IMG/VR virus record: IMGVR_UViG_3300008517_000092 | Coordinates: 1-20,687 of that record | Strand: one strand, 5' to 3' | DNA from: a virus | DNA: 20,687 nt | Shown here: positions 197 through 19,239 of the stretch, one piece after another | Layout: each line of letters starts with the position of its first letter | How positions within the stretch are numbered: position 1 is the stretch's first letter | The notes under the pieces: model-generated | What the model saw: the letters and a program-made list of their open reading frames with translations, nothing else | Told to the model about the DNA's origin: nothing | Database searches by the model: none | Made by a program: the position numbers and the translations under genes

Positions 197-3100
197 TTAA
201 GCACCCCCTACCGATCTTAAATATTCACTCTCTAATGTACTACCTTCGCCTATTTTTCTATCAATGCTTTCTAAATATTTATTATATTCCGTATTATCTG
301 CGATCCTTGCATTGATTATTATTATGCTTTCCATATTAGATAACATTTCAACGGTATTGATCCTGATTGCCTGGAATTGCCCAGCTAATAACCCCGCTGT
401 CTCTTCTGTTATGCCTGCGATTGCTCCCGTCAGTCCTGTTCTTTTCGCCTCTTCTAATCCTATACCTGCGGCATCTAAAATCGCCTGCATTGTTTCCCAT
501 TGAGCTGAAGCCATATCAACCATATTTTGATATAGTCCCGCTAAAGTTTTTATTTCCTCAACTGTCAATCCGCCTCCGGATAGAATATCAAATTGTTCCA
601 TCCAATCTCTAAGGTATTGAGTAATAATAGTTTTCTTAAAAGCATCTATCATCGCTCTCTGCATCATATCTTTGAAAGTATTGGCGAATACTTCAGCAGA
701 ATCCAATCCTTCATCGAATCCTCCGGCAATAGAATCGGCAATCGTCTCTTCTGTTATACCGGCAATCTCTTTCATTAATTCTTTTGCTTCTTCTATGATG
801 TCTGGAATTGTTGTTTCTTCAAATAAATCTATACCCGCTGCCTCTGCAATTGCCAATATTTGTTGCCATTCTGTTTCTACTCTTTGGAGTGTTATTAAAT
901 ATATATCTGCTAAAAGCTTTATTTCTTCGGCTGTCAAACCACCTTCGGCAAAATGTTCAAAACTTCTATACCAACGCTCCAGATATTTTGTGAGTATAGT
1001 TCTTTTAAAGGCATCTATAATTGCCTTTTTCATCATTTCGTTAAAGGTGTCGGCAAAAACCTGGGCTGAATCTAACCCCTGGGAAAATCCTTCAGCTATA
1101 GCATCGGCAATCGCTGAAGCGGTAGTACCTGTAAGAATTTGATTATATTGCTCATTTAGATTATCTATTTCTGCATTAATATTTTGTATGGACGATAGCC
1201 ATTGTTCTATCTTTTGTTGGTCAGTTTCGCTCCAAGTCCACCAGAGGAATTGTCCATAAGCTTCTTCTTCGGCTGCGATCATGTCATTATAAGTGTCAAT
1301 TTGCTCATTGAGTAAATCAATCATATTCTGTATTGCTTCTGGTTTTGCAGTCCCTACGGCTTGATTTAATATATTTTGTTGCTCTTGTAGTTCAAGGGTA
1401 ATCTCATGTAATTCTTCTTCGAGTTCGACGACATCAGAATGATGAACAACAAATAAATTAAAGATACTACTTACGGCAGTTATTATTCCGCCCAAAATCC
1501 CGAAAATGTTACCTGTCGCAAATCCAAATGTTATCTGACCTATTCCACTAACTAAATTGGCTAAATTATTTATCATCTGACCGAGTTCTGTATCGATTTC
1601 ACCTATAGCGGTAGCCAAAGAATGTAAAAGATCCACCGTCTTATTTATTTCGTCTCTTGTGTTCTCCCAAGTATTCTTTTGTGCTTCGGCGATTTCTTTA
1701 TTAATTAATAATACGGCATCGGCATATTCTGAATATTCTATCTTCATTTCTTCCAGGAAAATTATATATTCTCCTAGTTGTTGATTATTTAATCTTTCTC
1801 CGTATTCCGCTATTTTATCATTTATTTTTTGTCTTGCTTCGCCAAATCTAACTTCTGCTATTAATTGCCTTTCTATATTTCTTAATCTATCCCGTTCATA
1901 TTTGTCATCTGTGAGTTTCAAAAGTTCATTGGTCTTTTTGTGGATCGAAATTATCTTTTCTTCAGTCGTTTGGTAAGCTTCAAGATAAGATTCCAACATA
2001 TATCTATCTTTTTCGGCTTTCTCTTTCTCTATTTTGATTATTTCATTTATTTTATCTTTTACAAAGTCAAAATATTTTTCATTAATTTTCGTTTCTTCTC
2101 CGAGTGCTTTTTTAGCTATTTCTAGCCTTTGCTTATAAGCTATATCTGTTTCCCCTATTTGTCTTTCTAAATTCTCTTTGAATATAGTCAGATTCCCTTC
2201 CGCTATCTTTTTATCGTATGTTTCATTGATTTCCAATATATTTTGGTTATGTTTTTCTACTAGTGCCAGGTATTCAGCGGATCCTTCTTTGTGATCTTCT
2301 ATTATAGCCTCAAACCTTTTCCTCTCACTATCGAGATCTTTCTCCCTTGCCTCAGTAATATAATCAAAATATTCTTCCTCTGCCTTTTTCCTCTTCTCTG
2401 TTATTTCGCTATTATATTCGGCTATATCTAGCATGATTTCTTTGGTTAATTCGGCTACTCCGCTATATTCCGATAGCATATTAGATAGAAAACCACCATA
2501 ATTTATGGCATCTTCGGCCAGTTGTGCATTATGTTCTTCAACATATTCTTCACCAAATTGGGCTACGATTTTCCAATAAGATTTATATTGATCTGCCATA
2601 TATTCTAATTTATCTTTTACGTCTTCGACTTCCTTATCGCTGATTGCAAGTACAGGGACAACTACAGGTTTTTCACGTTCTATTTCTTCTGGCTTAGTCA
2701 CAATTGGTCTCTCTTGTAATTCTATCAACCTTCTTAATGCTTCTGTTTTGGCATCTACTATAAGAGTAGTTTCTTCTATTTTAAGTCTTAGATCATTTTC
2801 TTTTAAAGTTGCGGTTTCAGTTGCGAAAGTCAGATCATTTATTAGATCTAAATATTCACTATCTTTCTTTATGATTTTATCTAATTGTGCTTCTGATAAT
2901 AATGCTCCCTTAAATCCGCCCAATTCAAGTTGTATCATTTTCTTTCGTACTCTCATTTGTCCCTGAATACTTCTTATTGCTTTATTTGAGGCATCTTCAT
3001 CTTTTTCCCATCTCATTAATTCTAGTTCCGCCTGTTTTTTCTCAACCTTTGCCCTTTCCAATTCTAATTCCATGATCTTTACGCTTAGATTAAAAGAACC

Positions 3101-4459
3101 TTCTTTAGCCAAAGTTAGGATATCGATAGAACGTGCAACCCCTTCGGCAGCAAGTCCAAGAGTGGGGAAATATATTGCCAGGGCTTCCTCTGCTGCTTTT
3201 AATTGAATCGTTTCTTCTTTAGTGAGTTTTGTCTTGCCTCTTAGATCCTCTATGGTTTTAACCAGGTTATCAATCCTGCTTTGTTTCTTATATAAAGTAT
3301 TGGTCAATTCTACATAAGTTCTTGATAATTTTGAAAGTTCATCATTAGCCCCGGACATCACATAATTAATTTGGCTGGCTATATTATTCATAAATGCAAG
3401 CATTTCATCACCGAGTGGTTTCAATTTTGCCATTATATTATTCTTCATGATAGCCCATTGATTATCAGTGGTTTCCATCATGGTCTTAAAAGCCTTTCCT
3501 GTGGCTCCTAATGAATTTTCTATCTCATATAAAGTTTTATCGAATTGTTTACCTTCACCTGTCATAACTGCAAGTAATCCGATAAGTCCTCTAACGTTGG
3601 GGAATAATGACATCAAAGCAGCTTCGTTTCCTCTCGTTGCTTCTATTATTTCATGTAAAATCGTTTTGAATCCTTTTGATTTTAATGCAGATATATCAAA
3701 CTCGATCCCTAATTCCCTGGCCTTATCTGCTGCTTCGCCTGTTCCCTTAGATACACGGAGCATAGCAGTTACTATTCCTCTGATACCGGTAGATACAATA
3801 TGCGGGGATATCTTTTTTACTGCTTCGGCATACATAGCAGCTAATTCATTGAAGGATAATCCTGCCTCTGCAGCAAGTCCCGTTACCATAGAAATAGTTG
3901 GTCCGAGTTCATCCATTTTTACTTTTCCGAGTTTTATTATGGTAAATAATTTATCGGAAATTTCTGCTGCTGTTCCGGCAGCTGCTCCATAAGCATTCAT
4001 CACATAAGTCAGGGCATCGGCAGCGGTAAATGTATCGGTAACTGTAGCAACAGCAAGTTCGGCAGAAGTCCTTAATATATTCATAGCCTCAGCCCCGTCA
4101 TAGCCAGCACTTACGATCTGGTAGAGTGCCTTTGTGAGTTTCTGGGCAGTATCTGGGACGGTCTTGGACATATCGATTATTTCCTTAGATATTCCCTTAA
4201 AATTATTTTGGACAGCTTTCGATATGGTCTGGACTTCCTTCATTGCAGTTTCAAATTCTTTGGAGAAGTTGTAGGCCTGTTTAGTCATCTTAGCAAAGAC
4301 AAGAGCGGAGCCTATCGCAAGGCCGGCAAAAATATCCATACCGGTAATAGATCTCGCAAGTCCTCTCAATATTCCCTTGGCCTGGACCGCGCCTGTCTGC
4401 AATCCCGTATTATCGATTTTTGTATGCCAATATAAGCTATCGCCTGTCATTAAAGCCAT
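197..4459 (-). CDS. Tail tape measure protein, TP901-like, 1420 aa
   Basis: Tape measure proteins fill the tail tube lumen during assembly, set tail length and help DNA delivery. Residues about 60-380 resemble the TP901-type tape-measure core: Ala-rich helices with phrases such as KALYQIVSAGYDGAEAMNIL, GPTISMVTGLAAEAGL and a later NVRGLIGLLAVMTG. Residues about 380-960 are charged, helical and coiled-coil-like. A long hydrophobic Gly/Ile/Phe-rich segment lies at about 974-1006, as is common in these proteins. The C-terminal part (about 1109-1350) is a tandem duplication, annotated separately. The start follows HNH stop codon TAA by one base, with an SD (AAGGTGG) inside the last HNH codons. 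Length suggests a tail of roughly 200 nm if about 0.15 nm per residue applies, which is an inference. Confidence 0.93.
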   Translation of the reverse strand: MALMTGDSLYWHTKIDNTGLQTGAVQAKGILRGLARSITGMDIFAGLAIGSALVFAKMTKQAYNFSKEFETAMKEVQTISKAVQNNFKGISKEIIDMSKTVPDTAQKLTKALYQIVSAGYDGAEAMNILRTSAELAVATVTDTFTAADALTYVMNAYGAAAGTAAEISDKLFTIIKLGKVKMDELGPTISMVTGLAAEAGLSFNELAAMYAEAVKKISPHIVSTGIRGIVTAMLRVSKGTGEAADKARELGIEFDISALKSKGFKTILHEIIEATRGNEAALMSLFPNVRGLIGLLAVMTGEGKQFDKTLYEIENSLGATGKAFKTMMETTDNQWAIMKNNIMAKLKPLGDEMLAFMNNIASQINYVMSGANDELSKLSRTYVELTNTLYKKQSRIDNLVKTIEDLRGKTKLTKEETIQLKAAEEALAIYFPTLGLAAEGVARSIDILTLAKEGSFNLSVKIMELELERAKVEKKQAELELMRWEKDEDASNKAIRSIQGQMRVRKKMIQLELGGFKGALLSEAQLDKIIKKDSEYLDLINDLTFATETATLKENDLRLKIEETTLIVDAKTEALRRLIELQERPIVTKPEEIEREKPVVVPVLAISDKEVEDVKDKLEYMADQYKSYWKIVAQFGEEYVEEHNAQLAEDAINYGGFLSNMLSEYSGVAELTKEIMLDIAEYNSEITEKRKKAEEEYFDYITEAREKDLDSERKRFEAIIEDHKEGSAEYLALVEKHNQNILEINETYDKKIAEGNLTIFKENLERQIGETDIAYKQRLEIAKKALGEETKINEKYFDFVKDKINEIIKIEKEKAEKDRYMLESYLEAYQTTEEKIISIHKKTNELLKLTDDKYERDRLRNIERQLIAEVRFGEARQKINDKIAEYGERLNNQQLGEYIIFLEEMKIEYSEYADAVLLINKEIAEAQKNTWENTRDEINKTVDLLHSLATAIGEIDTELGQMINNLANLVSGIGQITFGFATGNIFGILGGIITAVSSIFNLFVVHHSDVVELEEELHEITLELQEQQNILNQAVGTAKPEAIQNMIDLLNEQIDTYNDMIAAEEEAYGQFLWWTWSETDQQKIEQWLSSIQNINAEIDNLNEQYNQILTGTTASAIADAIAEGFSQGLDSAQVFADTFNEMMKKAIIDAFKRTILTKYLERWYRSFEHFAEGGLTAEEIKLLADIYLITLQRVETEWQQILAIAEAAGIDLFEETTIPDIIEEAKELMKEIAGITEETIADSIAGGFDEGLDSAEVFANTFKDMMQRAMIDAFKKTIITQYLRDWMEQFDILSGGGLTVEEIKTLAGLYQNMVDMASAQWETMQAILDAAGIGLEEAKRTGLTGAIAGITEETAGLLAGQFQAIRINTVEMLSNMESIIIINARIADNTEYNKYLESIDRKIGEGSTLESEYLRSVGGA
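370..1140 (-). repeat. Tandem duplication inside the tape measure gene (two units plus a partial third)
   Basis: Two adjacent blocks of about 120 residues are clearly homologous. Unit 1 (bases about 1140-771) contains AIADAIAEGFSQGLDSAQVF, DAFKRTILTKYLERW and EGGLTAEEIKLLADIY. Unit 2 (about 770-421) contains TIADSIAGGFDEGLDSAEVF, DAFKKTIITQYLRDW and GGGLTVEEIKTLAGLY. A third partial copy of the leading helix (AGITEETAGLLAGQF) lies at about 420-370. The copies have diverged at many positions, so this is an old protein-level duplication and not an assembly artefact. Confidence 0.88.
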
Positions 4460-4460
4460 T

Positions 4461-5078
4461 TTATTCCACCTTAACCAATATCATTTCTTTAAAATATTTT
4501 TCCCAAAAATCTCTATTAAAATTAACCTTGGTATTACAAGACCTGCAAAGTGCTATTAGATTATTTGGTAAACAATTCTTTTTGATATAGTCAATATGAT
4601 GTATAGTGAGTTTAGAAATATTCTCACATTCGGGCATACCGCATAATTGACATTTGTAACCATCTCTTTGTCTAATTAATTCTTTTAATTGTTTATTAAA
4701 TTCAGGAGAATAAGGTTCAAAAGAAATTCCACCTTGCCAACTTGAATTATTTTCACCTATAGCCGATTTACTCATCTTTAATTTTGTTTCTTTATTATGG
4801 TGAGTTCCTGTAAATCTTTTAATTATCATTAATATAAATTCTTCCGAACGTTGTTTACCTCTGTTAGCTTTGCTTATTTTTTCTTTAGTCTTTTCTGAGC
4901 AATATTTTCCTTTATTCCAAGGGATTTGTCCTTTTCTAAATTCAGTCCCTTGTGAAACATGTTTACCTAAATGAAATTCACTCATTTTTTTTAAAGTTTC
5001 GTCATTTAAATTTTCTCTCAAGTGGGCAGTTCTATTTTTTTCTATAGTTTCTTCTGTATGACGGCTTCCTTTTCTCAT
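4461..5078 (-). CDS. HNH homing endonuclease with NUMOD3 motifs, 205 aa
   Basis: This is a probable free-standing homing endonuclease. The N-terminal two thirds holds short basic NUMOD3-like DNA-binding motifs (SEKTKEKISKANRGKQRSEE at about 61-80; HNKETKLKMSKSAIG at about 95-109). The C-terminal third is an HNH domain: RQRDGYKCQLCG (zinc-binding C143 and C146), LTIHHID (H160, H161, D163), PNNLIALCRSC (N172/N173, C178, C181) and a final N near 186. It sits between the GT2 gene and the tape measure with no spare bases: its ATG directly follows the GT2 stop, and the tape-measure ATG begins one base after its own stop. Both neighbours appear complete, so it is neither inside an intron nor an intein. 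It likely cuts HNH-less relatives at this junction to spread. Confidence 0.9.
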   Translation of the reverse strand: MRKGSRHTEETIEKNRTAHLRENLNDETLKKMSEFHLGKHVSQGTEFRKGQIPWNKGKYCSEKTKEKISKANRGKQRSEEFILMIIKRFTGTHHNKETKLKMSKSAIGENNSSWQGGISFEPYSPEFNKQLKELIRQRDGYKCQLCGMPECENISKLTIHHIDYIKKNCLPNNLIALCRSCNTKVNFNRDFWEKYFKEMILVKVE

Positions 5079-6269
5079 TTATCCTTCCTTATCAATCTTT
5101 TTTTTTGTCTTCTCGGTAGCATTCCAGATATCCCATCTAATTGGCAACCTATTGTTATTCAATCCAATCCCCATATTCATATATTCTCCGGCTTTTTCGC
5201 TATTTCCCTTTTCGAATTCATAAATGGCTAACCAATTGAGAATTTCGGGGAGTACGATTTTCGAATTGTTAATTTGTAATCGTTCATATAAACTTCCCTT
5301 TGTCTTGCAAATATCGAGTGCTGTATCAAAATAATTTTTTGCCTTTTCATTGTCCCTGCCGGTCCAGTAATTTCCCAGCATCAAATATATTTGAGAGATC
5401 CTGCTCGAATAATGGCAGGCCTCTCTTTCTATCCTTTCCGCATTCTCTATGTCGTCTTTGGCCAAGTATGCCCCCACCAACTTGACAAAAACTTCAAGAA
5501 AGGAAGTCCAACCCTCATTATAATTCGCCTTTCTCATATTCTTGATCCATAATCCGCCATGGAGAATCGTATTTTCAAAATCTTTCATGACATAATATGT
5601 TTTGACTAAATGTGTCAAATTATGCAGATTATCCGGATGTTCCTTGAACTCTTTTTGGAGCATCGGCAGGCTGCGAGCCATTTTATTATCAAATAATTTT
5701 TCACCCTTTCCCCCCTGAAATAGATAGCCATAATGGTTAAAGATTATATTGGGAGCAAAAAGATATGGAGTTTTTATTTTAGGTTTATTATGAACAGACT
5801 GTTCATAGTGAAAATTATTATCATTTTTGAATATTCTTGGCTGTAGCATTTCCGAATATTGCTTTAAATCACTTACATAATAGTTATATAGCTTCACAAA
5901 TACCGTGGGCTGCTTATATTCCGGGTTCAGAATTATATCCTCTAAGGGATATAGGCACCTCTGGAGCAATTCCTCATCAGCATCGATTATCATAATCCTA
6001 TCCCCGATAGCCTTTCCGATCCCATAATTGCGGGCCTTGCTGAAATCCCAAGGGATAAATTCTTTTTTGTATATCTTGTCGGTAAACTTTTTGGCAATAT
6101 TTATCGTCCTGTCCGTTGATCCGGTATCCACTATAACCAGTTCGGTAAGTGGTTTTAATGTCTCATCATCCTTCATTTGAATAATAGGCAAGAAGGAATC
6201 CAAACATCTTTGTAAATTCGCTTCCTCATTTTTGACTATCATACATATTGATAATTTTGGTTTTTCCAT
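5079..6269 (-). CDS. GT2-family glycosyltransferase with C-terminal TPR-like region, 396 aa
   Basis: The N-terminus is a GT-A fold family 2 glycosyltransferase: LSICMIVKNEEANLQRCL at residues 6-23, ELVIVDTGSTDRT at 43-55, FSKARNYG at 76-83, and the metal/nucleotide-sugar DxD motif IDADEE (D96, D98). Residues about 205-390 form helical TPR-like pairs (for example ENAERIEREACHYSS, NEKAKNYFDTALDICK, LNWLAIYEFEKGNSEKAGEY). GT2-TPR proteins are known among bacterial protein and glycan glycosyltransferases; the SunS S-glycosyltransferase is a related architecture. No membrane segment is seen, so it should act in the cytoplasm. The start has a good SD (AAGGAGA, 6 bases upstream). It lies just downstream of a small virion-like protein and the giant Ser/Thr/Tyr-rich repeat protein. 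Virion glycosylation is an inference; donor and acceptor are unknown. Confidence 0.9.
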   Translation of the reverse strand: MEKPKLSICMIVKNEEANLQRCLDSFLPIIQMKDDETLKPLTELVIVDTGSTDRTINIAKKFTDKIYKKEFIPWDFSKARNYGIGKAIGDRIMIIDADEELLQRCLYPLEDIILNPEYKQPTVFVKLYNYYVSDLKQYSEMLQPRIFKNDNNFHYEQSVHNKPKIKTPYLFAPNIIFNHYGYLFQGGKGEKLFDNKMARSLPMLQKEFKEHPDNLHNLTHLVKTYYVMKDFENTILHGGLWIKNMRKANYNEGWTSFLEVFVKLVGAYLAKDDIENAERIEREACHYSSRISQIYLMLGNYWTGRDNEKAKNYFDTALDICKTKGSLYERLQINNSKIVLPEILNWLAIYEFEKGNSEKAGEYMNMGIGLNNNRLPIRWDIWNATEKTKKKIDKEG

Positions 6270-6284
6270 TATTTCTCCTTTTTA

Positions 6285-6572
6285 TTAATCTAAATTATCT
6301 AAAACTTCAAAATCAACCATTTCTCCATATCCCTTCCAGGCTGCTGATTCTATGTATAGTTGAATATGCCATTTTCCCACGGCATCTAAATCGCCTGCTT
6401 TCGTGGTATAAGATACACTGTCTGTCCCCTCTGCTGTAGCAGTCCATTCTCCCTTTACCCTCGTTGCGCCAGGTTTAGAATATAATATTTTCCAGACAGT
6501 AGCTGTTGATATATTACATCCAGCGTCTAATATAATTTTCGTTCCAATATCATTTTTATATATTTTACTCAT
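6285..6572 (-). CDS. Small beta-rich phage virion-associated protein, 95 aa
   Basis: This short protein alternates hydrophobic and polar residues in a way typical of a beta sandwich: YKNDIGTKIILDAG at the start, ATVWKILYSKPGA, GEWTA, then GDLDAVGKWHIQLYIES and a final FEVLDNLD. Similar small domains occur in phage tail and baseplate-associated proteins (BppU/Ig-like N-terminal modules). That resemblance is from memory of motif style only. Its ATG overlaps the stop of the repeat protein by one base (TAATG), with GGAG upstream, so the two are translationally coupled and probably act together. The exact role is unknown. Confidence 0.72.
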   Translation of the reverse strand: MSKIYKNDIGTKIILDAGCNISTATVWKILYSKPGATRVKGEWTATAEGTDSVSYTTKAGDLDAVGKWHIQLYIESAAWKGYGEMVDFEVLDNLD

Positions 6573-9500
6573 TAATCTGTCTCCAAATCAATTTTAGAAT
6601 TAAACGTAATCTCTTTCGTTATATTCGAATTAAGCGTAACCCCTCTTGTAATTCCCGAATCTAACGAAATTTCTTTTGTTATTATCGAATTTAACGCAAG
6701 CTCTTTTGTTATGTCAGAATTTAATGTAATCTCTTTTGTTATATAAGAAAGGAAAGTTATGGTTTCTTTAAATCGAAAGGCAGTTCCACTAAATGTAAAC
6801 TGTCCACTACTTACATACTCATAATCTACGCCTGCAATTTCGTAAGTACATTCGGCTTCACCCGAATAGGTTAATTCCCCACTGCTAATATAGGCAAAAC
6901 CAATTATTGTGGTCGCAATCCCTGAATAAATGAACGATCCACTACCAGTATAAGGATAAATAAAGGTAAAGGAATAAGTTGCTTCTCCTGAATAATTTAG
7001 ACTTCCATTTGTTATATAAGCAAATTCTAATTCACAAGTTCCTTCACCGCTAAAAGTAAAAGTTCCGTCTGCTAAATAAGCAAAGTTTATGGTGTAGGAC
7101 TGTATCGCAGTCCCCGAATATGAAAAACTTCCACTTGCCGTATAGCTAAAACCTAAGCTGTATAATCCCGCTCCACTAAAATTAAACGAACCGCTTCCTA
7201 CATAAGTAAAGCCAACTGTTATTGTTGCCTCTCCTGAATAGGTTAATTCTCCACTTCCCGTATATAAATAATAACGGGAATGTATTTGAGTGGCAGTTCC
7301 ATTAAAGGTAAGTGAACCACTTCCCACATATTCAAAATCCGCAATTGTTAGATAACTATATTCAGCAGCACCTGAATATATAAGCTCTCCACTGCTTATA
7401 TAAGCAAATCCAATTATTGTTATGGCAGTTCCTGAATAGGCAAAATCTCCGCTTGCTGTGTAAGTAAAATCTGTTATATAGGATTGAGTTGCTGTTCCAA
7501 AATATGCTAACGAGCCACTTCCTGTATAAGCTAATCCTAACTCATAAGAACCTGCTCCACCAAAGGCAAAACTTCCGCTTGTTATAGTAGAAAACTCAAT
7601 AGTTGTGATTGCATTACCTGAATAATTGAACGTTCCGCTTGTTGTATATAGAAAGTCAGTTTTATAAGATACTACTGCACTGCCAGAGTAAATTAAAGAA
7701 CCGCTTCCTGTATAGGCAAATCCCAAAACGCAAGTTGCACTACCCGAAAAGGCTAAACTTCCGCTACCTGTATAACTAAATCCTAAGGTGTATAATCCCG
7801 CTCCACTGTAATTAAATGAACCACTACCTGTATATTCAAAATCAGCACCAGCAATGGTATATTCACATACTGCTGCACCCGAATAAATAAAATCCCCGCT
7901 TGCTATATAGCCAAAAGAGTAAGTATGAGATTGAGTCGCTTCTCCAGAATAATTGAAATTTCCACTACCCACACAATAAAACCCTAAACTATAAGCACCT
8001 ATCCCACTATAATTAAAAGAGCCTGTTCCTACCGTGATAAAATTCTTACTATGAGTTTGGATTGCAGTTCCACTAAAGACACAAGATCCACTACCTATTT
8101 GGGAGAATCCAACAGAATAAGTTGCTTCTCCGCTAAATGTCAAAGAACCGTCTGCTACATAACTAAAATTGCGTGTATAAGATTGCTCGGCAACTCCTGA
8201 ATAGGCAAGTTCCCCGCTTCCTGTAAACAAGAAATCGCATAGATAGGAAAAGATTGCTTCTCCTGAATATATAAGTTCACCAACCGCTGTAGATAAAAAA
8301 TCACGTGTATAAGTTACAACTGCCTCGCCAGAATATGCTAATGAACCACTGCCCACAAAAGAAAGACCAACAATTATTACCGCACTACCAGAAAAGGCTA
8401 AACTTCCACTACCTGCAGTTAGATAATCTTTTGAATATACATAAACAGCACTGCCAGAATAAGATAACTGACCGCTTGCTATAATTAGATAATTTCTTGT
8501 ATGAGATTGAGTGGCAGTTCCTGAATAAATAAGCTCTCCAGTCCCTGTATATTCAAACTCACCCCCTGCACTTGCTGCCTCAATAATCACCGTAGCCGCT
8601 GCCCAATCTCTCGATGTCGATGTAAATACTGCTGTGCCTGTGTTGCCTGCGCCTTCCAATGTTCCACTACTTAAAAAATCCGTTTCATATACTCTTGCGA
8701 GAAGGCTGCCACTTTCGTCAGGATTATAAAATTTTATTCTCATTGCTGTTACTGTTTGAGTACCAGCAGGAATTTCTTTTTCTACCCATTCTATGTCTGC
8801 AAAAGCACCTTCATAAATATTATGCCAATCATCAGAATAATAGACATCTACACTTATCTGTGATAGATATATTGCACTATAATCTGCCATAAATCTTATT
8901 TTATTACAACTTATAGCAGAAATAGTAAGTGTTAAATAAGGAGACCAACCAAGATTCGGTATACCATAATATAGAGTGGAGGTTTCAGTATCTTCATCAT
9001 AAGCCCTGTATTCAGTATTCCAGCCTGTTTCATCAAATCCAGTAGGTGATACCCATACATCAAAAGTGGTCTTATCTCCCCCAGCACCACCGATATCATT
9101 AGCTTGAATAGCGTTAAATCTTTCTTCTAATTGTGCAGGAGTTTCATAATCATTATCATCACTGTCAATACCCATAACCTGTAAGACTAAACTGCCTGCC
9201 GTTAAATCGGTAAATTCTACTGAAGGTGCAGTCGGAGTTGCACTGTCTCCTGTTGCAATGCCCGAATTGTGAATAGGTGTAAGTGCCTTAACGCCCTTAT
9301 AACATATTATTTCACCTATCCAATCTTCACTATCACCATTCCAAGTATATTCCGTTGTTTGGTTTGCGTCTCCTGCCTCTGCCCATTTCCAAGCTATATA
9401 TAAAGTGGTTGCTCCATTGGCTATGTTATTAAAGACCATATTCCAATCGCCATAAGAACCAGTTTCTAATATTGCAACATCGTCATCTTTGCTTATGTAA

Positions 9501-9604
9501 GCAATGAGTAAGTCACCAACAGATGTTCCCACTGGTGCAGTCATTAAGATACTTGTGCCACCATCTGTCTTAAATTGAGATATTCCTACAAATTCTACAG
9601 CCAT
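6572..9604 (-). CDS. Giant Gly/Ser/Tyr-rich repeat protein, probable tail fibre or virion adhesin, 1010 aa
   Basis: Three regions are visible. Residues 1 to about 340 are non-repetitive: a beta-rich virion-like domain (VGTSVGDLLIAYISKDDD, IICYKGVKALTPIHN) followed by a segment like a discoidin/carbohydrate-binding fold (ISCNKIRFMADYSAIYLSQ and TVTAMRIKFYNPDESGSLLA). Residues about 350-947 are 28 imperfect repeats with core FxYxGSGSLxYSGxAT. Residues 951-1010 are 10-residue LNSxITKEIx repeats. There is no signal peptide or membrane anchor. The start has SD AGGTGAG about 9 bases upstream and directly follows a 44-aa ORF. Its location between tail chaperones and tape measure suggests a tail-associated protein: fibre, tube decoration or receptor-binding protein. 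It could also be a structural spacer without receptor function. I do not recognise a named family for the repeats. Confidence 0.85.
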   Translation of the reverse strand: MAVEFVGISQFKTDGGTSILMTAPVGTSVGDLLIAYISKDDDVAILETGSYGDWNMVFNNIANGATTLYIAWKWAEAGDANQTTEYTWNGDSEDWIGEIICYKGVKALTPIHNSGIATGDSATPTAPSVEFTDLTAGSLVLQVMGIDSDDNDYETPAQLEERFNAIQANDIGGAGGDKTTFDVWVSPTGFDETGWNTEYRAYDEDTETSTLYYGIPNLGWSPYLTLTISAISCNKIRFMADYSAIYLSQISVDVYYSDDWHNIYEGAFADIEWVEKEIPAGTQTVTAMRIKFYNPDESGSLLARVYETDFLSSGTLEGAGNTGTAVFTSTSRDWAAATVIIEAASAGGEFEYTGTGELIYSGTATQSHTRNYLIIASGQLSYSGSAVYVYSKDYLTAGSGSLAFSGSAVIIVGLSFVGSGSLAYSGEAVVTYTRDFLSTAVGELIYSGEAIFSYLCDFLFTGSGELAYSGVAEQSYTRNFSYVADGSLTFSGEATYSVGFSQIGSGSCVFSGTAIQTHSKNFITVGTGSFNYSGIGAYSLGFYCVGSGNFNYSGEATQSHTYSFGYIASGDFIYSGAAVCEYTIAGADFEYTGSGSFNYSGAGLYTLGFSYTGSGSLAFSGSATCVLGFAYTGSGSLIYSGSAVVSYKTDFLYTTSGTFNYSGNAITTIEFSTITSGSFAFGGAGSYELGLAYTGSGSLAYFGTATQSYITDFTYTASGDFAYSGTAITIIGFAYISSGELIYSGAAEYSYLTIADFEYVGSGSLTFNGTATQIHSRYYLYTGSGELTYSGEATITVGFTYVGSGSFNFSGAGLYSLGFSYTASGSFSYSGTAIQSYTINFAYLADGTFTFSGEGTCELEFAYITNGSLNYSGEATYSFTFIYPYTGSGSFIYSGIATTIIGFAYISSGELTYSGEAECTYEIAGVDYEYVSSGQFTFSGTAFRFKETITFLSYITKEITLNSDITKELALNSIITKEISLDSGITRGVTLNSNITKEITFNSKIDLETD
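6575..6754 (-). repeat. 30-bp coding repeats (LNSxITKEIx) at the 3' end of the repeat-protein gene
   Basis: Six consecutive 10-residue units encode residues 951-1010: FLSYITKEIT, LNSDITKELA, LNSIITKEIS, LDSGITRGVT, LNSNITKEIT and a degenerate FNSKIDLETD. The 30-bp period is visible in the DNA without spacers. Regular alternation of hydrophobic residues could build a beta-solenoid-type stack or an oligomerisation tail. It differs in sequence and period from the larger repeats upstream. Confidence 0.88.
6760..8557 (-). repeat. Array of 28 coding repeats of 20-25 residues (60-75 bp)
   Basis: I count 28 copies around the core GSGS(L/F)xYSGxA. Most are 20 residues long, ending in phrases such as TLG, VLG or IIG before the next FxY. 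A second class is about 22 residues, ending in phrases such as SHTRN, SYTRD or SYKTD. Four are longer (about 23-25 residues), including YTIAGAD and YEIAGVD. The Gly-Ser-Gly turn, aromatic residue and small-residue pattern are strongly kept, while DNA-level identity is moderate. This suggests a repetitive beta structure under protein-level selection. Confidence 0.92.
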
Positions 9605-9758: not shown

Positions 9759-10160
9759 TTATTCACCTATCAGTTTAACAGTAATTTTTTCTGTTCCACC
9801 ACCACTTGGAATAGTATGCGGAGCGTCAGAAAATCTTTCAGCCCATAATAATCCTGTTCCCGCTGTGTCGGTTATGTAGTAACCATAGTGAGAACCTGCA
9901 CCAGTCAGTGTAAAAGTTTTCTGCGGTTGTTCTGCTGTGGTTGTTCCTGTAACGGTCGCAATAGTCCAATCTGCCTTCGCTAAAGATATTGCGGAATATC
10001 CTGCGGTATCTGCTTCTGTAAAATCTCCAACAACGGTATCTTCAGCTGGTGAAATATCATTTTTGAAAAGTTTTAACTTTACATCATCCCCTGGTGTAAT
10101 CTTATTTAATGAGTAACTTAATAATAGGACTTCTCCTACGTCTGGTACTAAAAGTGCCAT
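9759..10160 (-). CDS. Probable phage structural beta protein, 133 aa
   Basis: The sequence begins MALLVPDVGEVLLLSYSLNK and continues with VKLKLFKNDISPAEDTVVGDFTEADTAGYSAISL, written here as features: a short lysine/asparagine beta hairpin, a DFTEAD turn and a GYSAISL strand. It ends in a beta-rich half with GSHYGYYITD and LLWAERFSDAP. I recall similar small proteins encoded near phage tail fibre genes, but I cannot name a family with certainty. It has the strongest SD in the window (AAGGAGGTGA, about 7 bases before ATG), so high expression is likely. The following 44-aa ORF and the repeat protein share the same GGTGARTAA leader style, suggesting one cassette. Confidence 0.75.
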   Translation of the reverse strand: MALLVPDVGEVLLLSYSLNKITPGDDVKLKLFKNDISPAEDTVVGDFTEADTAGYSAISLAKADWTIATVTGTTTAEQPQKTFTLTGAGSHYGYYITDTAGTGLLWAERFSDAPHTIPSGGGTEKITVKLIGE

Positions 10161-10195: not shown

Positions 10196-10938
10196 TCATA
10201 ATAGACCTTTTAATTCGTTAATATCTTTAATCTCCATATTGCTTATTTCTTTCCTTTTTTGTTTTTTGGGATCATAACTGGGAATACTACTCATCAACAT
10301 CGCCAGGTTAGTATATGAGTAATTCCATAAGATATCCCTCATGGACATCCGGGGAAAATAATGCATCAATCCGCCAATTATTCGCCAGGGGTTACCTTTT
10401 TCTTGGTCTGTAGAAGGTTCATCCCCTTTATCGAAACTAAAGACGCCAAAAAAGGGTTTACATCCATTTGTTGAACTATTACCGTCATTAGCTTCAACCC
10501 CTCCTTCGCGGTCAGGTTTTCATTCAGGAATTTAATTAATCTTTTTGATGGTTCTTTTTCGCTGTTGACAATTCCGTAGGCAATCATCTTGATCATTTTG
10601 TCTTTGTTTTCAATTATATTCTTTGCCCCCAGATCTAAAAGATTGATTTCCTTCCCCTCGTTTTTCATAGCCCCTACTAATTCATCGGTATCTAAATCCA
10701 ATAAAATTTTGCTGATTTTTAATAGGGTCCCCATTTTGATGGGATAGATAACGAATTTTCTTTCAGAGGGAATTAAACTAAGTTTATGGAATATATTTTT
10801 ATTTTGGATGGTAATAGTAAAATCAACTCCCTCTTCGAGAATTGAATCTACAGCATTCTGGCGGATCTGCTTATTTTCTTTATTACTCGAGGCCCCGAGT
10901 TTATCCTTGATTACTTTTTTTTTATTCTTTTTCGGCAT
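10196..10938 (-). CDS. Tail assembly chaperone GT fusion made by -1 frameshift, 247 aa
   Basis: Ribosomes reading the 186-aa chaperone frame meet AAG-AAA-AAG at 10404-10396. If they slip back one base there, they read 66 further codons in the -1 frame to TGA at 10198-10196. That frame begins GNPWRIIGGLMHYFP, continues with MRDILWNYSYTNLAMLMSSI and PSYDPKKQKRKE, and ends NELKGLL. The W-N-Y-S-Y-T-N-L pattern is typical of the T domain of siphophage G/GT tail chaperones. The stretch has no start or ribosome binding site of its own, so fusion is the natural explanation. In known phages such as lambda, G and GT are made in a fixed ratio and load the tape measure with tube subunits. The exact slip base is inferred. 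Confidence 0.85.
10378..10938 (-). CDS. Tail assembly chaperone G (unshifted product), 186 aa
   Basis: This is the zero-frame product. It begins with a very basic stretch (MPKKNKKKVIKDKLG) and then alternates alpha helices and short strands, including FHKLSLIPSERKFVIYPI, DLDTDELVGAMKN and IKMIAYGIVNSEKEPSKRLI, which fits G-like chaperones that transiently coat the tape measure. It ends with KKKVTPGE just past the slippery site. The start has GAGAGGA about 7 bases upstream. It lies after the major tail protein and a hairpin, the normal chaperone position, although the tape measure here is about 5.7 kb further on rather than next door. Confidence 0.82.
   Translation of the reverse strand: MPKKNKKKVIKDKLGASSNKENKQIRQNAVDSILEEGVDFTITIQNKNIFHKLSLIPSERKFVIYPIKMGTLLKISKILLDLDTDELVGAMKNEGKEINLLDLGAKNIIENKDKMIKMIAYGIVNSEKEPSKRLIKFLNENLTAKEGLKLMTVIVQQMDVNPFLASLVSIKGMNLLQTKKKVTPGE
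10396..10404 (-). other. -1 ribosomal slippery site in the tail chaperone gene
   Basis: The zero-frame codons are AAG AAA AAG followed by GTA. The best slip is at G-AAA-AAG, where the A-site AAG can re-pair as AAA; this is not a perfect XXXYYYZ heptamer because the P-site would move from AAA to GAA. The evidence that a shift occurs is the conserved-looking T-domain coding in the -1 frame after this point. No downstream pseudoknot was established by eye. Confidence 0.72.
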
Positions 10939-12386: not shown

Positions 12387-13142
12387 TTAATAACTCCATT
12401 TATAGCTATAACATTTTACTGGACATTCTCCAATATAATTTAAGAACTGTTTGGTAGAAGAAGTTGAAATTCCTATTACATTGTTACCAACTTGCCTTAT
12501 GGCTTTGAAACCCAATTTGATTAATTGTATTACTAACCATTCGACATCTGAAATCGGGAATCCGCAAGTGCATAACACAATATATGGTCTGCATCTTTTC
12601 TTATGGACTAAACAACCATCCCCAAGCATTTCTTGCCTCAAAACTAATGATGTTAACTTTAAATCTCGTGGTATTATTTTATGTCCATTGGGATACCATC
12701 TATTTCTAATCGGTAATAATTCTTCATAGCATAAAGAATCATAATGATAAGAATAATTATTCCACCTTTTGTCTTTTTCTTCGTGAATTTTCCCAGCTTG
12801 TTTTATACCAAAAGAATTTAAGATATCCGAAATATATTGAATATATTCTAGATGTTTTGAACTATATGCAAAATTTGCTGAATATTTAGATTGTGAACGT
12901 AAATTCCCATCGCCTAATAATTCCCCATCAATCCATTGTTTTGCTTTTTCTGATAGATTACAATGGTTACCTCTTGCTAAATTTTGTGCTTCACTTTTGG
13001 AACGAATTGAAATATTAAGTTTCTTTAACCAATAATATATAGTTGTTTTATCATAATTGAACAATTTGGCAATTTGGAAAATAGACAATTCCTCTTCTAA
13101 ATATTTTTGATTTAGCCAATTTTTATTTTTGTAATTTTTCAT
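12387..13142 (-). CDS. LAGLIDADG homing endonuclease with N-terminal helix-turn-helix, 251 aa
   Basis: Residues about 16-46 form a helix-turn-helix-like domain (IFQIAKLFNYDKTTIYYWLK). Two LAGLIDADG motifs follow: WIDGELLGDGNL at 70-81 and VLRQEMLGDGCL at about 167-178, with expected catalytic acidic residues near D78 and D175. Between them, NGHKIIPRDLKLTSL is typical of single-chain LAGLIDADG enzymes. It should be a cytoplasmic DNA endonuclease that copies itself into uninterrupted relatives. It sits between two complete genes, six bases after the stopper-like gene and one base before the gp10-like start, so it is free-standing. Start: ATG with AAGG in the previous gene's last codons. Confidence 0.92.
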   Translation of the reverse strand: MKNYKNKNWLNQKYLEEELSIFQIAKLFNYDKTTIYYWLKKLNISIRSKSEAQNLARGNHCNLSEKAKQWIDGELLGDGNLRSQSKYSANFAYSSKHLEYIQYISDILNSFGIKQAGKIHEEKDKRWNNYSYHYDSLCYEELLPIRNRWYPNGHKIIPRDLKLTSLVLRQEMLGDGCLVHKKRCRPYIVLCTCGFPISDVEWLVIQLIKLGFKAIRQVGNNVIGISTSSTKQFLNYIGECPVKCYSYKWSY

Positions 13143-16614: not shown

Positions 16615-16642
16615 ATTATAACATTTTATTTAATTTTTGCAA
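16615..16642 (-). promoter_or_regulatory. Candidate extended -10 sigma70-type promoter at the end of the sugar cassette
   Basis: On the minus strand a perfect TATAAT (16620-16615) is preceded by TG one base away (TGTTATAAT), an extended -10. A TTGCAA (16642-16637) lies 16 bases upstream, matching the -35 consensus at four of six positions. The -35 is in the last codons of the methyltransferase-glycosyltransferase gene. Transcription would start near 16605-16609 and meet the terminator within about 70 bases. AT-rich DNA makes TATAAT common, but the combined elements and location are suggestive. Confidence 0.5.
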
Positions 16643-18261
16643 ATTTCTTTGTATTTTCTAAAATTATTCATAAATTCTGTCCCCTGGCTAATCCCATAAT
16701 TTTTTATAGCCTGGCATGTTATTCTGTTCTCCAATTCCTTTTCGTTTACTTTAAATATTTTATTCACTTCTGTAAAGCAATAGGCCGTCTGGATGGGAAT
16801 ATCCTTTATCCTGTCTTTGATCTGCCTCGATGCTGATGTTTCGCTATGCTCATATCCCCCATAGGTATAATAGATGGGTATGATATTTTTTATATATCCG
16901 GAGAATACCATTATATCCAACAGTAAGGTATCGGGGGCAACATTCATTCTTTTTATCCTAATTTTCTCATAGAGCATATCCGATTCGTTATAGGCCTTTA
17001 GTAGATTGCTTTTCTTTATAATAGTATTACTAAGTGATATTTTCCCAGAAAGAGTAAATAATTCCGATATGATATGATCATAAATCGATTTTAGATATCG
17101 ATGGTACCAGATATCCCCCGTAAATTTGCCATTTTTCATTAATGCACATGAATTCGACAGGTGGGTATTTTCAGGACAGTTCTTTAAGTCCCGCATAATC
17201 TTCCTGATACATCCCGGGAATATCAAATCATCGATGTCGAGAAAAAAGATATAATCATTGCTTGCCTTCTTCAAACCCTCATATCGTGCCTTATGTTCAC
17301 CCGAATTAATTTTGAGATTAATTAACTGGGAATTGGGTAAACTACGTAATTTCTCCTGCAGCAATATCTTTGTCCTATCGATTGAGCAATCATTCACATA
17401 GATTATTTCTAGGTCCGGATAACTCACTTTCCATAAATTTTTAATTGATCTTCCAATATATTCCTCCCCATTATAAACAGGAATGATAATTGATACGCCC
17501 TCTTTAGGAATTTTTTCCTCAAGTTTGTTTCTTGCCGAACCGATAGCGATTAGCCAACTGCCCACATTATCGTCTCCATTAAATGATCTGGCCAGATTCC
17601 GCGATAATTGCAAGGTTATAAGTTCGGGATTTATTCGCTTCAAATAATATGCCTCTGAGCCCAACCCTATGATCTGCTCATGAAGCATAGACAAACCAGC
17701 TTCTTTGAATAGATCCGATAATGTTAAAAAGTCCCTCTCGAATCCGTATTCCCACGTTCCCTCCTTCTGTGAATATGATTTTGATAGTTTGTATGTATCC
17801 GAACCGCCATAAGGCACCCCCACTATGATGTACTTGCCCAATTTGCCCATTTCCTTAAGCATTTCTATTATCTTTAAATCGTCAAAATGCTCTAAGAGCC
17901 CCATACTGAAAACCATATCATAATAATTGCGTCTCGATTCATTTTCTCCAAAATCAGACAAATCTATTTCTCGAAATATACAATTATTTATCTGGTAATC
18001 ATTAGCAATCCTATTCGCCAATTTAACGCTCTCCGGATCTTTATCTATTCCCTCACATTTAGCACCCCTGAGAGCCAATTCAATACAGTATTGACCGGTG
18101 CCAGTCCCCACATCAAGAATAGACTTGTTTTTCAAATCAAAATATTTCAGTAGAATACCTATGAATTCAGATCTGAGCAACATGCCACCCGGTTCGTTCA
18201 TAATAGAAACAGAATCTATGTTCTGATAGCTCTTCCAAAGAGAATTCCATACCTTGCTCAT
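16630..18261 (-). CDS. Fused SAM methyltransferase and GT2 glycosyltransferase, 543 aa
   Basis: Residues about 1-230 are a class I SAM-dependent methyltransferase: motif I SILDVGTGTGQYCIELAL at 47-64, acidic GIDKDPESVKLAN at 71-83, and MVFSMGLLEHFDDL at about 116-129, as in small-molecule or sugar methyltransferases. Residues about 253-370 are a GT2 domain: GVSIIIPVYNGEEYIGRSI, EIIYVNDCSIDRT and DYIFFLDIDDLIFPG with the DxD motif (D342, D344). The C-terminal 170 residues are not recognised. Both activities in one chain suggest transfer and capping (methylation) of the same glycan, as on phage or host surface sugars; this is inferred. SD AAGGAGATATA, five bases before ATG, is formed by the last codons of the previous gene, which abuts it. 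Confidence 0.9.
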   Translation of the reverse strand: MSKVWNSLWKSYQNIDSVSIMNEPGGMLLRSEFIGILLKYFDLKNKSILDVGTGTGQYCIELALRGAKCEGIDKDPESVKLANRIANDYQINNCIFREIDLSDFGENESRRNYYDMVFSMGLLEHFDDLKIIEMLKEMGKLGKYIIVGVPYGGSDTYKLSKSYSQKEGTWEYGFERDFLTLSDLFKEAGLSMLHEQIIGLGSEAYYLKRINPELITLQLSRNLARSFNGDDNVGSWLIAIGSARNKLEEKIPKEGVSIIIPVYNGEEYIGRSIKNLWKVSYPDLEIIYVNDCSIDRTKILLQEKLRSLPNSQLINLKINSGEHKARYEGLKKASNDYIFFLDIDDLIFPGCIRKIMRDLKNCPENTHLSNSCALMKNGKFTGDIWYHRYLKSIYDHIISELFTLSGKISLSNTIIKKSNLLKAYNESDMLYEKIRIKRMNVAPDTLLLDIMVFSGYIKNIIPIYYTYGGYEHSETSASRQIKDRIKDIPIQTAYCFTEVNKIFKVNEKELENRITCQAIKNYGISQGTEFMNNFRKYKEICKN

Positions 18262-19239
18262 TTATATCTCCTTTATAATTTCCTTAGTTTGTTTTAGCTG
18301 ATTCTTAAATGTCCAGCCTTTGTCTATAATCCATTGCCTATAAGCGCTTGAATAATAATCTTGAGATTTTATTATATTAACCGCTCCCTCAATCGTATTA
18401 AATATATCACCCTTTCGGTATAATTCTTTGGCCCCCCTGAAATTATGGATTACCGGTTTAATTCCCCTGGCCATGGCCTCGAAAATACCATACCCAAAAC
18501 TTTCATGTATCGATGTATGAAGCAGATAATTTTTATCTTTCCAGAAGCCCCCCATGTCATCAATCCAACCGTAGAATTTTACATTATCCCGTAGTCCCAT
18601 TTCCTTGATCATATATTCCAGGTATATTTTATATCTCAAATCCTGGAATGAACCTGCTATATGAAGTCTATATTGTGGATCAACGATAAAACCTCCATAC
18701 ATAAAACCTTTATGATTAATATTATGAATCCCTTTAATTAACTTATTTAATATTTGCAAGGCCATTTGGGGATTTTTCTTATAGTTAATGAATCCAACCC
18801 AGGCTATGTTATGCCCAGGCTGCCGCTTCCTCCATGGAGTAGAGTCTAGATCAATTCCATTAGAAACGATTTCTGTTTTAACTTTATTCTCGATATCGGG
18901 TATAAATTCTTTCAGGATTTCCTTGATATGGGGAGCTACCAGAATCAATTTATCTACTATAAGCCAATTGATCTGTCTAGGAAAATCCGTAAATACTTCA
19001 TAACTATGAAGTCTGATTATAACCTTTTTGCCCTTGATCCCCTCGTAATTCGTTCCTATAATGGCCGATTGATTGCACCATTCCAGCCAGACAATATCAG
19101 CCCAGTCGATTGCATTATATACATCCTGCTGGGCTCTGATTATGAACTTCCTGACGATATAATCGGCTGACAATCCCTCGATTATCGGGTCTATGAATTG
19201 GTCAAGTCCTGCCAGGCATATAAAACCTATCTTTTTCAT
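18262..19239 (-). CDS. GT4-type glycosyltransferase, 325 aa
   Basis: The C-terminal half has the GT-B nucleotide-sugar site: VSNGIDLD at 125-132, RLHIAGSFQDL, NVKFYGWIDDM, then TSIHESFGYGIFEAMARGIKPV (E246, G249 and E254 are the key residues) typical of family 4. The N-terminal half is an alpha/beta fold (IVWLEWCNQSA, VIIRLHSYEVFTDFP, LILVAPHIKEIL). At 325 residues it is slightly short, and no membrane segment is seen. The strong SD (AAGGAGG, about 9 bases) suggests good expression. It is translated immediately before the MT-GT2 gene, so the two likely act in sequence. The acceptor is unknown. Confidence 0.9.
   Translation of the reverse strand: MKKIGFICLAGLDQFIDPIIEGLSADYIVRKFIIRAQQDVYNAIDWADIVWLEWCNQSAIIGTNYEGIKGKKVIIRLHSYEVFTDFPRQINWLIVDKLILVAPHIKEILKEFIPDIENKVKTEIVSNGIDLDSTPWRKRQPGHNIAWVGFINYKKNPQMALQILNKLIKGIHNINHKGFMYGGFIVDPQYRLHIAGSFQDLRYKIYLEYMIKEMGLRDNVKFYGWIDDMGGFWKDKNYLLHTSIHESFGYGIFEAMARGIKPVIHNFRGAKELYRKGDIFNTIEGAVNIIKSQDYYSSAYRQWIIDKGWTFKNQLKQTKEIIKEI

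Follow-up and report, generated by a model that had tools for sequence, protein, structure and literature searches.

A 1010-residue protein, much of it built from short Gly/Ser/Tyr-rich units and encoded among phage structural genes, raises the question of where such an array is placed and what it does. The gene (6572..9604, ATG start) is part of a 20,687-base IMG/VR virus record (IMGVR_UViG_3300008517_000092), which was analysed at its full length and is called the window here; all window features given below lie on the minus strand, and L-numbers (L005, L015, L095 etc.) are labels of the IMG/VR viral loci with which it was compared. The explanation that we favour, with a probability of roughly 0.58, is that a long-tailed phage carries this protein in its virion, on the tail or baseplate, as an adhesin with a head resembling a carbohydrate-binding module (CBM), a length-variable solenoid stalk and the product of a neighbouring gene, MALLV, as a possible attachment partner. 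According to this explanation the binding of surface glycans would fall to a CBM32-like jelly-roll close to the N-terminus, the 28 units, each contributing one coil, would build up a rigid beta-solenoid stalk, a C-terminal array of decapeptides would cap or anchor this stalk, and MALLV would help to attach or assemble the adhesin on the tail or baseplate. Gain or loss of coils in the middle of the array would alter its reach and a swap of the head its target, and the gene pair would act as a mobile, length-adjustable host-contact module. The analysis shows the repeat, the fold of the CBM-like domain, the variation in unit number, the conserved gene pair and the fusion of such arrays to the baseplate protein GP46; the solenoid (weakly), the presence in the virion, the binding of glycans and the part played by MALLV are inferred.

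The repeat array and its predicted fold

The array covers residues 350-949 (6758..8557; about 600 residues) and consists of units with the core F/Y-x-Y-x-G-S-G-x-L/F-x-Y/F-S-G-x-A. A preliminary description of this DNA, made from the letters alone, had counted 28 copies in three length classes over nearly the same number of residues, and both statements proved correct: the strict core pattern used for counting, G-x-[LFYCI]-x-[YFLCI]-x-G-x-[AGVTIP], matched exactly 28 times, compared with a mean of 0.62 and a maximum of 5 matches in 2000 composition-preserving shuffles, and the units fell into lengths of 20 residues (12 units), 22 residues (13 units, the first counted without its lead-in) and 24-25 residues (one of 24 and two of 25). 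Two Gly residues and a Y/F at core position 10 are present in every one of the 28 units, and a Ser at position 11 in 25 of them. Since the mean DNA identity among the unit cores is only 56% and the array is invisible to Tandem Repeats Finder, it is a repeat at the protein level; neither Tandem Repeats Finder nor the comparison of unit-core DNA showed any near-identical tandem duplication of units.

The length classes differ solely in the loop joining the A of one unit to the F/Y of the next, which comprises 5 residues (e.g. TYSVG), 7 residues (e.g. TQSHTRN) or 9-10 residues (e.g. VCEYTIAGAD). These loop sequences are class-specific and, rather than being hypervariable, are conserved within each class in three phages (the window, L015 and L005), and for this reason they look like part of the architecture rather than a diversifying surface. 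The 28 units are followed by a second array of about five copies of a 10-residue unit (ITKEITLNSx, or xITKEITLNS in another register; 6575..6744), which Tandem Repeats Finder detects as its only repeat, with a period of about 30/60 bases (6597-6744). Short C-terminal arrays of a comparable kind also end the related proteins of L015, L005 and L098.

In agreement with the earlier statement that the repeat lies outside named families, no Pfam, NCBIfam or PHROG family was reached at its cut-off. The sole Pfam match of the window protein, to Bflower_3 (PF21786; 15.2 bits against a cut-off of 34), was rejected after consulting the paper on this family, as the beta-flower fold is a closed barrel built from 8-12 strands (Durairaj et al., 2023; PMC10584680) and the window protein has 28 units in a row. 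A model of eight units, built with a monomer predictor and nine aligned relatives, was all-beta and of low confidence, with a mean predicted local distance difference test score (pLDDT) of 59.6. Its Foldseek matches were not significant (best E 0.13) and yet nearly all of them were beta-solenoids, among which VIA-align placed chains of DUF2807 domains first and third (3ljy_A, Z 14.4; 3jx8_D, Z 14.2), superposing on this low-confidence model with a root-mean-square deviation (rmsd) of 2.4 over 160-162 residues at a Foldseek E of 2.6. A viral structure library yielded no significant match to the repeat model. Independently of this model, the sequence profile of the units matched four solved DUF2807 domains, namely 3jx8 (E 6.6e-7), 4opw (E 0.0018), 3ljy (E 0.011) and 3lyc (E 0.036). 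In the direct comparison with the Pfam family, the window protein gave no match up to E 1 and the L005 protein scored 15.4 bits against a gathering cut-off of 24.2. Taken together, profile and model weakly suggest that the units most likely fold as a DUF2807-like beta-solenoid in which each of them forms one coil. Beta-solenoids have a nominal rise of 0.48 nm per coil, at which 28 coils would give a stalk of about 13 nm.

DUF2807 (PF10988, described as 'putative auto-transporter adhesin, head GIN domain') resembles the window protein in its Gly-Ser-Gly spacing and in the beta-solenoid tentatively predicted for the latter, although it is a bacterial domain of few coils and the window protein is a phage protein with 28 regular units. 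Alternatively, the units might be the repeats of three intertwined chains in an obligate trimeric fibre shaft (triple beta-spiral or triple beta-helix), since their shortness and the alternation of Gly and hydrophobic residues recall fibre shafts generally and an obligate trimer would be expected to give a monomer model of low confidence; as profile and model both favour, if weakly, a single-chain DUF2807-like solenoid, we consider a trimeric shaft rather unlikely. In L087, a 293-residue protein encoded downstream of MALLV (L087:3730-4611) carries highly regular units of the form YTITPSGGVVLSGxNxI and has a NosD-like Pfam match (E 2.5e-6), which is another hint of a beta-helix.

Head domains and the length of the stalk among relatives

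The confident part of a model of residues 1-347 is formed by residues ~181-311 (8672..9064; pLDDT about 85, mostly 84-94), for which Foldseek retrieved CBM32 and other jelly-rolls of the F5/8 type C (discoidin) class with E values of 3e-5 to 1e-3 and a probability of 1.0. VIA-align gave Z scores of 11-13 overall for CBM32 and F5/8C chains, with 13.1 for 2yc2 and 12.6-13.0 for CBM32 and chitosan-binding modules (rmsd mostly 2.4-3.1), at sequence identities of about 6-16% in the structural alignments. This supports a CBM32-like, discoidin-type jelly-roll fold, and thus the carbohydrate-binding-like domain that had been proposed to precede the array. With the domain alone as query, no Pfam family was matched up to E 10 and no PDB sequence was found. 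A beta-rich domain 1 (residues ~1-155; 9140..9604), which is poorly modelled (low pLDDT) and has no Pfam assignment, precedes it, and a tail of this domain seems to resume at residues ~313-345, as though the CBM-like domain were an insertion. In L005, L095 and L098 domain 1 is exchanged for an unrelated domain whose start is rich in Cys and the CBM-like domain is retained, indicating that head modules are swapped.

With a consensus of the units as query, relatives were recovered from viral contigs. The natural N-terminus or the natural repeat segment gave no matches in the viral contigs, tblastn of the N-terminus gave none among named phages, and PDB sequence searches returned nothing useful, whether the query was the complete protein, MALLV or an alignment of the CBM-like domain. 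Scanning bacterial and archaeal genomes with the repeat or MALLV consensus led to no confirmed relative, and therefore no host can be named. The closest relative, from the 39-kb record L015, in which a tape measure protein but no sheath was detected, is 62% identical to the window protein, and that of L005 is 51% identical.

A comparison of repeat counts across relatives, as had been proposed at the outset, gave 28 units in the window, 19 in L005 and 15 in L015. The order of the units is colinear between the window and either relative, as in neither case did any of 500 unit-order shuffles reach the observed alignment score; between the window and L015 the final units correspond, and it is chiefly in the middle of the array that the two differ. 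In L095, a podovirus-like relative of L005 with the same downstream genes, the CBM-like domain is present and the protein stops there without an array; MALLV was not found in this 37-kb record. The 1868-residue relative in L098 (L098:743-6349) has an array whose unit has diverged to LxGxLxFTGxIxK and into which other domains intrude. By inspection these interrupting domains resemble DUF2341/LamG types, and the protein ends in short repeats of an LSI type. The series of 28, 19 and 15 units, together with the missing array in L095 and the altered one in L098, indicates that the array has been gained, lost and resized, and supports a change of stalk length by gain or loss of blocks of units. Of the recombinational change envisaged earlier, length variation is thus supported, whereas a change of loops is not supported, given their conservation within each class across three phages. 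The series of 15, 19 and 28 units might serve as a natural stalk-length series for the effect of reach on adsorption.

A less active role can be imagined for the same architecture, namely that of a passive structural spacer, such as a neck or whisker-like fibre, which does not bind the host and whose CBM-like domain serves for docking. The conserved loops, in which no diversification was seen, would suit such a spacer, as would the position of MALLV near sheath-stabiliser and sheath genes in T4-like loci, described below, and the precedent of Anabaena phage A-1(L), whose neck-fibre carbohydrate-binding module failed to bind the host (PMC10966104) and calls for caution regarding the mechanism. 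The head swaps among the relatives and the joining of arrays to LamG domains are, by contrast, typical of adhesins and make the spacer improbable.

The MALLV partner and the place in the virion

Just upstream of the repeat gene lies a gene for a 133-residue protein (9759..10160), named MALLV from its N-terminal MALLVPDVGE, which matches phrog_10467 (E 1.4e-8) and has homologues upstream of repeat genes elsewhere. The preliminary description overlooked this partner and the decapeptides at the C-terminus, and it did not recognise that the units probably form a beta-solenoid. All of the IMG/VR groups found through the repeat alone (L005, L006, L007, L008-L010 and L011-L012) have MALLV 0-3 genes upstream, and the pair also occurs in the Synechococcus myoviruses S-CAM1, S-CAM3, S-SSM7, Sf-FS3 and S-SCSM2R, where it corresponds to PHROG 10467 and PHROG 11522, two families to which no function is assigned. 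The name 'tail fiber rope protein' given to the S-SCSM2R MALLV homologue was discarded, as it could not be traced to any experiment. In cyanophages such as S-CAM1 and S-SSM7 the order of the pair, the unit of ~20 residues and the start and end motifs of MALLV are as in the window, although their arrays (in repeat proteins of ~2.1 thousand residues) are longer and irregular and their MALLV domain is split by insertions. The window repeat protein gave no match to the PHROG 11522 hidden Markov model, and the protein of L006 bridges to this family (E 7e-5).

MALLV as the sole query gave at least 353 IMG/VR matches. Among 51 non-redundant MALLV loci, in which a nearby open reading frame (ORF) was called a repeat ORF at a repeat-profile E<1e-3, 20 contained such an ORF, in every case downstream on the same strand at a distance of 4-2229 bases, compared with none for shuffled ORFs. 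Over the 16 kb around L005, similarity to the window is confined to MALLV (69% identity) and the repeat protein (49% over the segment aligned by BLAST). The L005 record contains connector and internal-virion-type genes and neither a tape measure nor a sheath was detected in it, so that it is considered podovirus-like; since S-CAM1 has a contractile sheath, the pair crosses morphotypes. Overall, MALLV and the repeat are found together in phages of siphovirus-like, podovirus-like, T4-like and Mu-like types, and, judging from these loci, the MALLV gene is the constant of the module and a mobile module appears to be the real context of the repeat gene. In T4-like loci (L026, L051, L063 and similar ones) MALLV lacks a repeat partner and precedes a sheath-stabiliser-like gene and the sheath gene, and it probably has a repeat-independent role as well.

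The neighbourhoods of the module and its fusions, considered together, point to the tail or baseplate as the place of the repeat protein. In the Mu-like locus L025, the gene after MALLV encodes a single protein that has an array in its N-terminal part and a GP46 domain (PF07409; E 7.9e-6 and 26.2 bits, just below the cut-off of 28.6) in its C-terminal part; a baseplate wedge gene (phrog_6, E 2.7e-46) comes next. An equivalent fusion in the Mu-like L019 is above the cut-off (PF07409, E 1.4e-12). In both cases an array of the window type stands in front of GP46, a domain that the window protein lacks, and the baseplate wedge gene follows directly. In the T4-like L063 sheath-stabiliser and sheath genes come after MALLV, and in S-CAM1 the pair follows shortly after a proximal tail fibre gene. 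In the window and L015 the pair lies within the tail operon, on opposite sides of a chaperone-like gene (10378..10938 in the window; PHROG 12247, E 4e-12, a family of unknown function). The repeat gene had originally been described as lying between tail chaperones and tape measure, and both neighbours are indeed present, the tape measure gene being located at 197..4459 (PF10145, E 1.6e-26; phrog_991, E 1.2e-41); the placement between them is unconserved and incidental, as it is not a property of the system when the chaperone-like gene lies on the other side in L015. In L073 an array and a lectin-like LamG domain are found on one chain (Laminin_G_3, E 4e-5).

Tube, chaperone and tape measure genes near the module in the window and L015, the CBM-like fold and the dispensable array of L095 would also be compatible with a multi-copy decoration of the tail (or capsid), which mediates weak general adhesion to polysaccharides or mucus and is not a dedicated receptor-binding fibre of the tail tip. 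Two observations speak against a tube-specific site, namely that the array is fused to the baseplate protein GP46 in the Mu-like loci and that the gene occurs in a podovirus-like phage in which no tape measure was detected; we regard a decoration as unlikely, even if it is the most credible of the alternatives. Of the two roles first suggested, an extendable adhesin or fibre accordingly remains the likeliest, and a decoration specific to the tail tube is disfavoured by the podovirus-like, T4-like and Mu-like contexts of the gene. Glycosyltransferases and homing endonucleases among the neighbours, and the lack of proteomic evidence in the literature searched, could instead suggest a non-virion accessory protein inserted into a structural operon, which is highly improbable given that such arrays are fused to the virion protein GP46 and that the gene persists among structural genes in several phage types.

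Several observations weigh against a tail or baseplate adhesin with a solenoid stalk and a MALLV partner. No virion proteome of any carrier phage was found in the literature searched; many MALLV loci have no repeat protein, and Microcystis/Pseudanabaena phages have similar repeats without MALLV. The unit profile also matches Rhs/YD and WD40-type chains, as may happen with a Gly/Ser-rich periodic sequence, and with a mean pLDDT of 59.6 for the repeat model the solenoid is a hint. Furthermore, some proteins with a discoidin-type fold do not bind sugars, including APC10 and IFT25, both among the top matches.

The array is of the kind known from phage fibres and beta-solenoid adhesins, and what is new is that it is regular, varies in length and is paired with a partner that is portable. 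Receptor-binding machinery is mostly bound to one tail architecture. It is conceivable, at somewhat less than even odds, that MALLV and the G-S-G beta-solenoid protein belong together in a virion module that has escaped recognition and does not depend on morphotype, a plug-in adhesin of adjustable length with its own attachment protein and exchangeable heads, which moves among siphovirus-, podovirus-, T4- and Mu-like phages. If so, a general-purpose adhesin cassette would stand beside a tape measure gene, podovirus-type head and connector genes and T4-like tail-fibre genes, and be fused to a Mu-like baseplate protein, and large sets of unknown phage proteins would receive a name (PHROG 11522, PHROG 10467 and the at least 353 MALLV matches in IMG/VR).

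Other genes of the window

The stop of the repeat gene is overlapped by the start of an ORF for a 95-residue protein (6285..6572); genes of comparable size are found at this place in L015, L005 and L098, and BLAST finds no similarity between the proteins of the window and L005. An open -1 frame overlaps the chaperone-like ORF and runs to ~10196 (87 codons in the stretch read), with an adjoining A-rich site (ACC AAG AAA AAG G), and represents a candidate for a programmed frameshift of the G/GT type (10196-10420).

Glycosyltransferases are located within the structural region of the window. A GT2 glycosyltransferase gene (5079-6269; PF00535, E 2.7e-19), positioned immediately ahead of the genes for the HNH-like protein and the tape measure, is kept at the equivalent place in L015, and two more glycosyltransferase-like ORFs, recognised by inspection, lie upstream of the head genes (16630-18261 and 18262-19239). 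Likewise, homing-endonuclease-like genes were noted by inspection amid the structural genes, one of the HNH type (4461-5078) and one LAGLIDADG-like (12387-13142), and similar genes occur at different places in L015 and L095.

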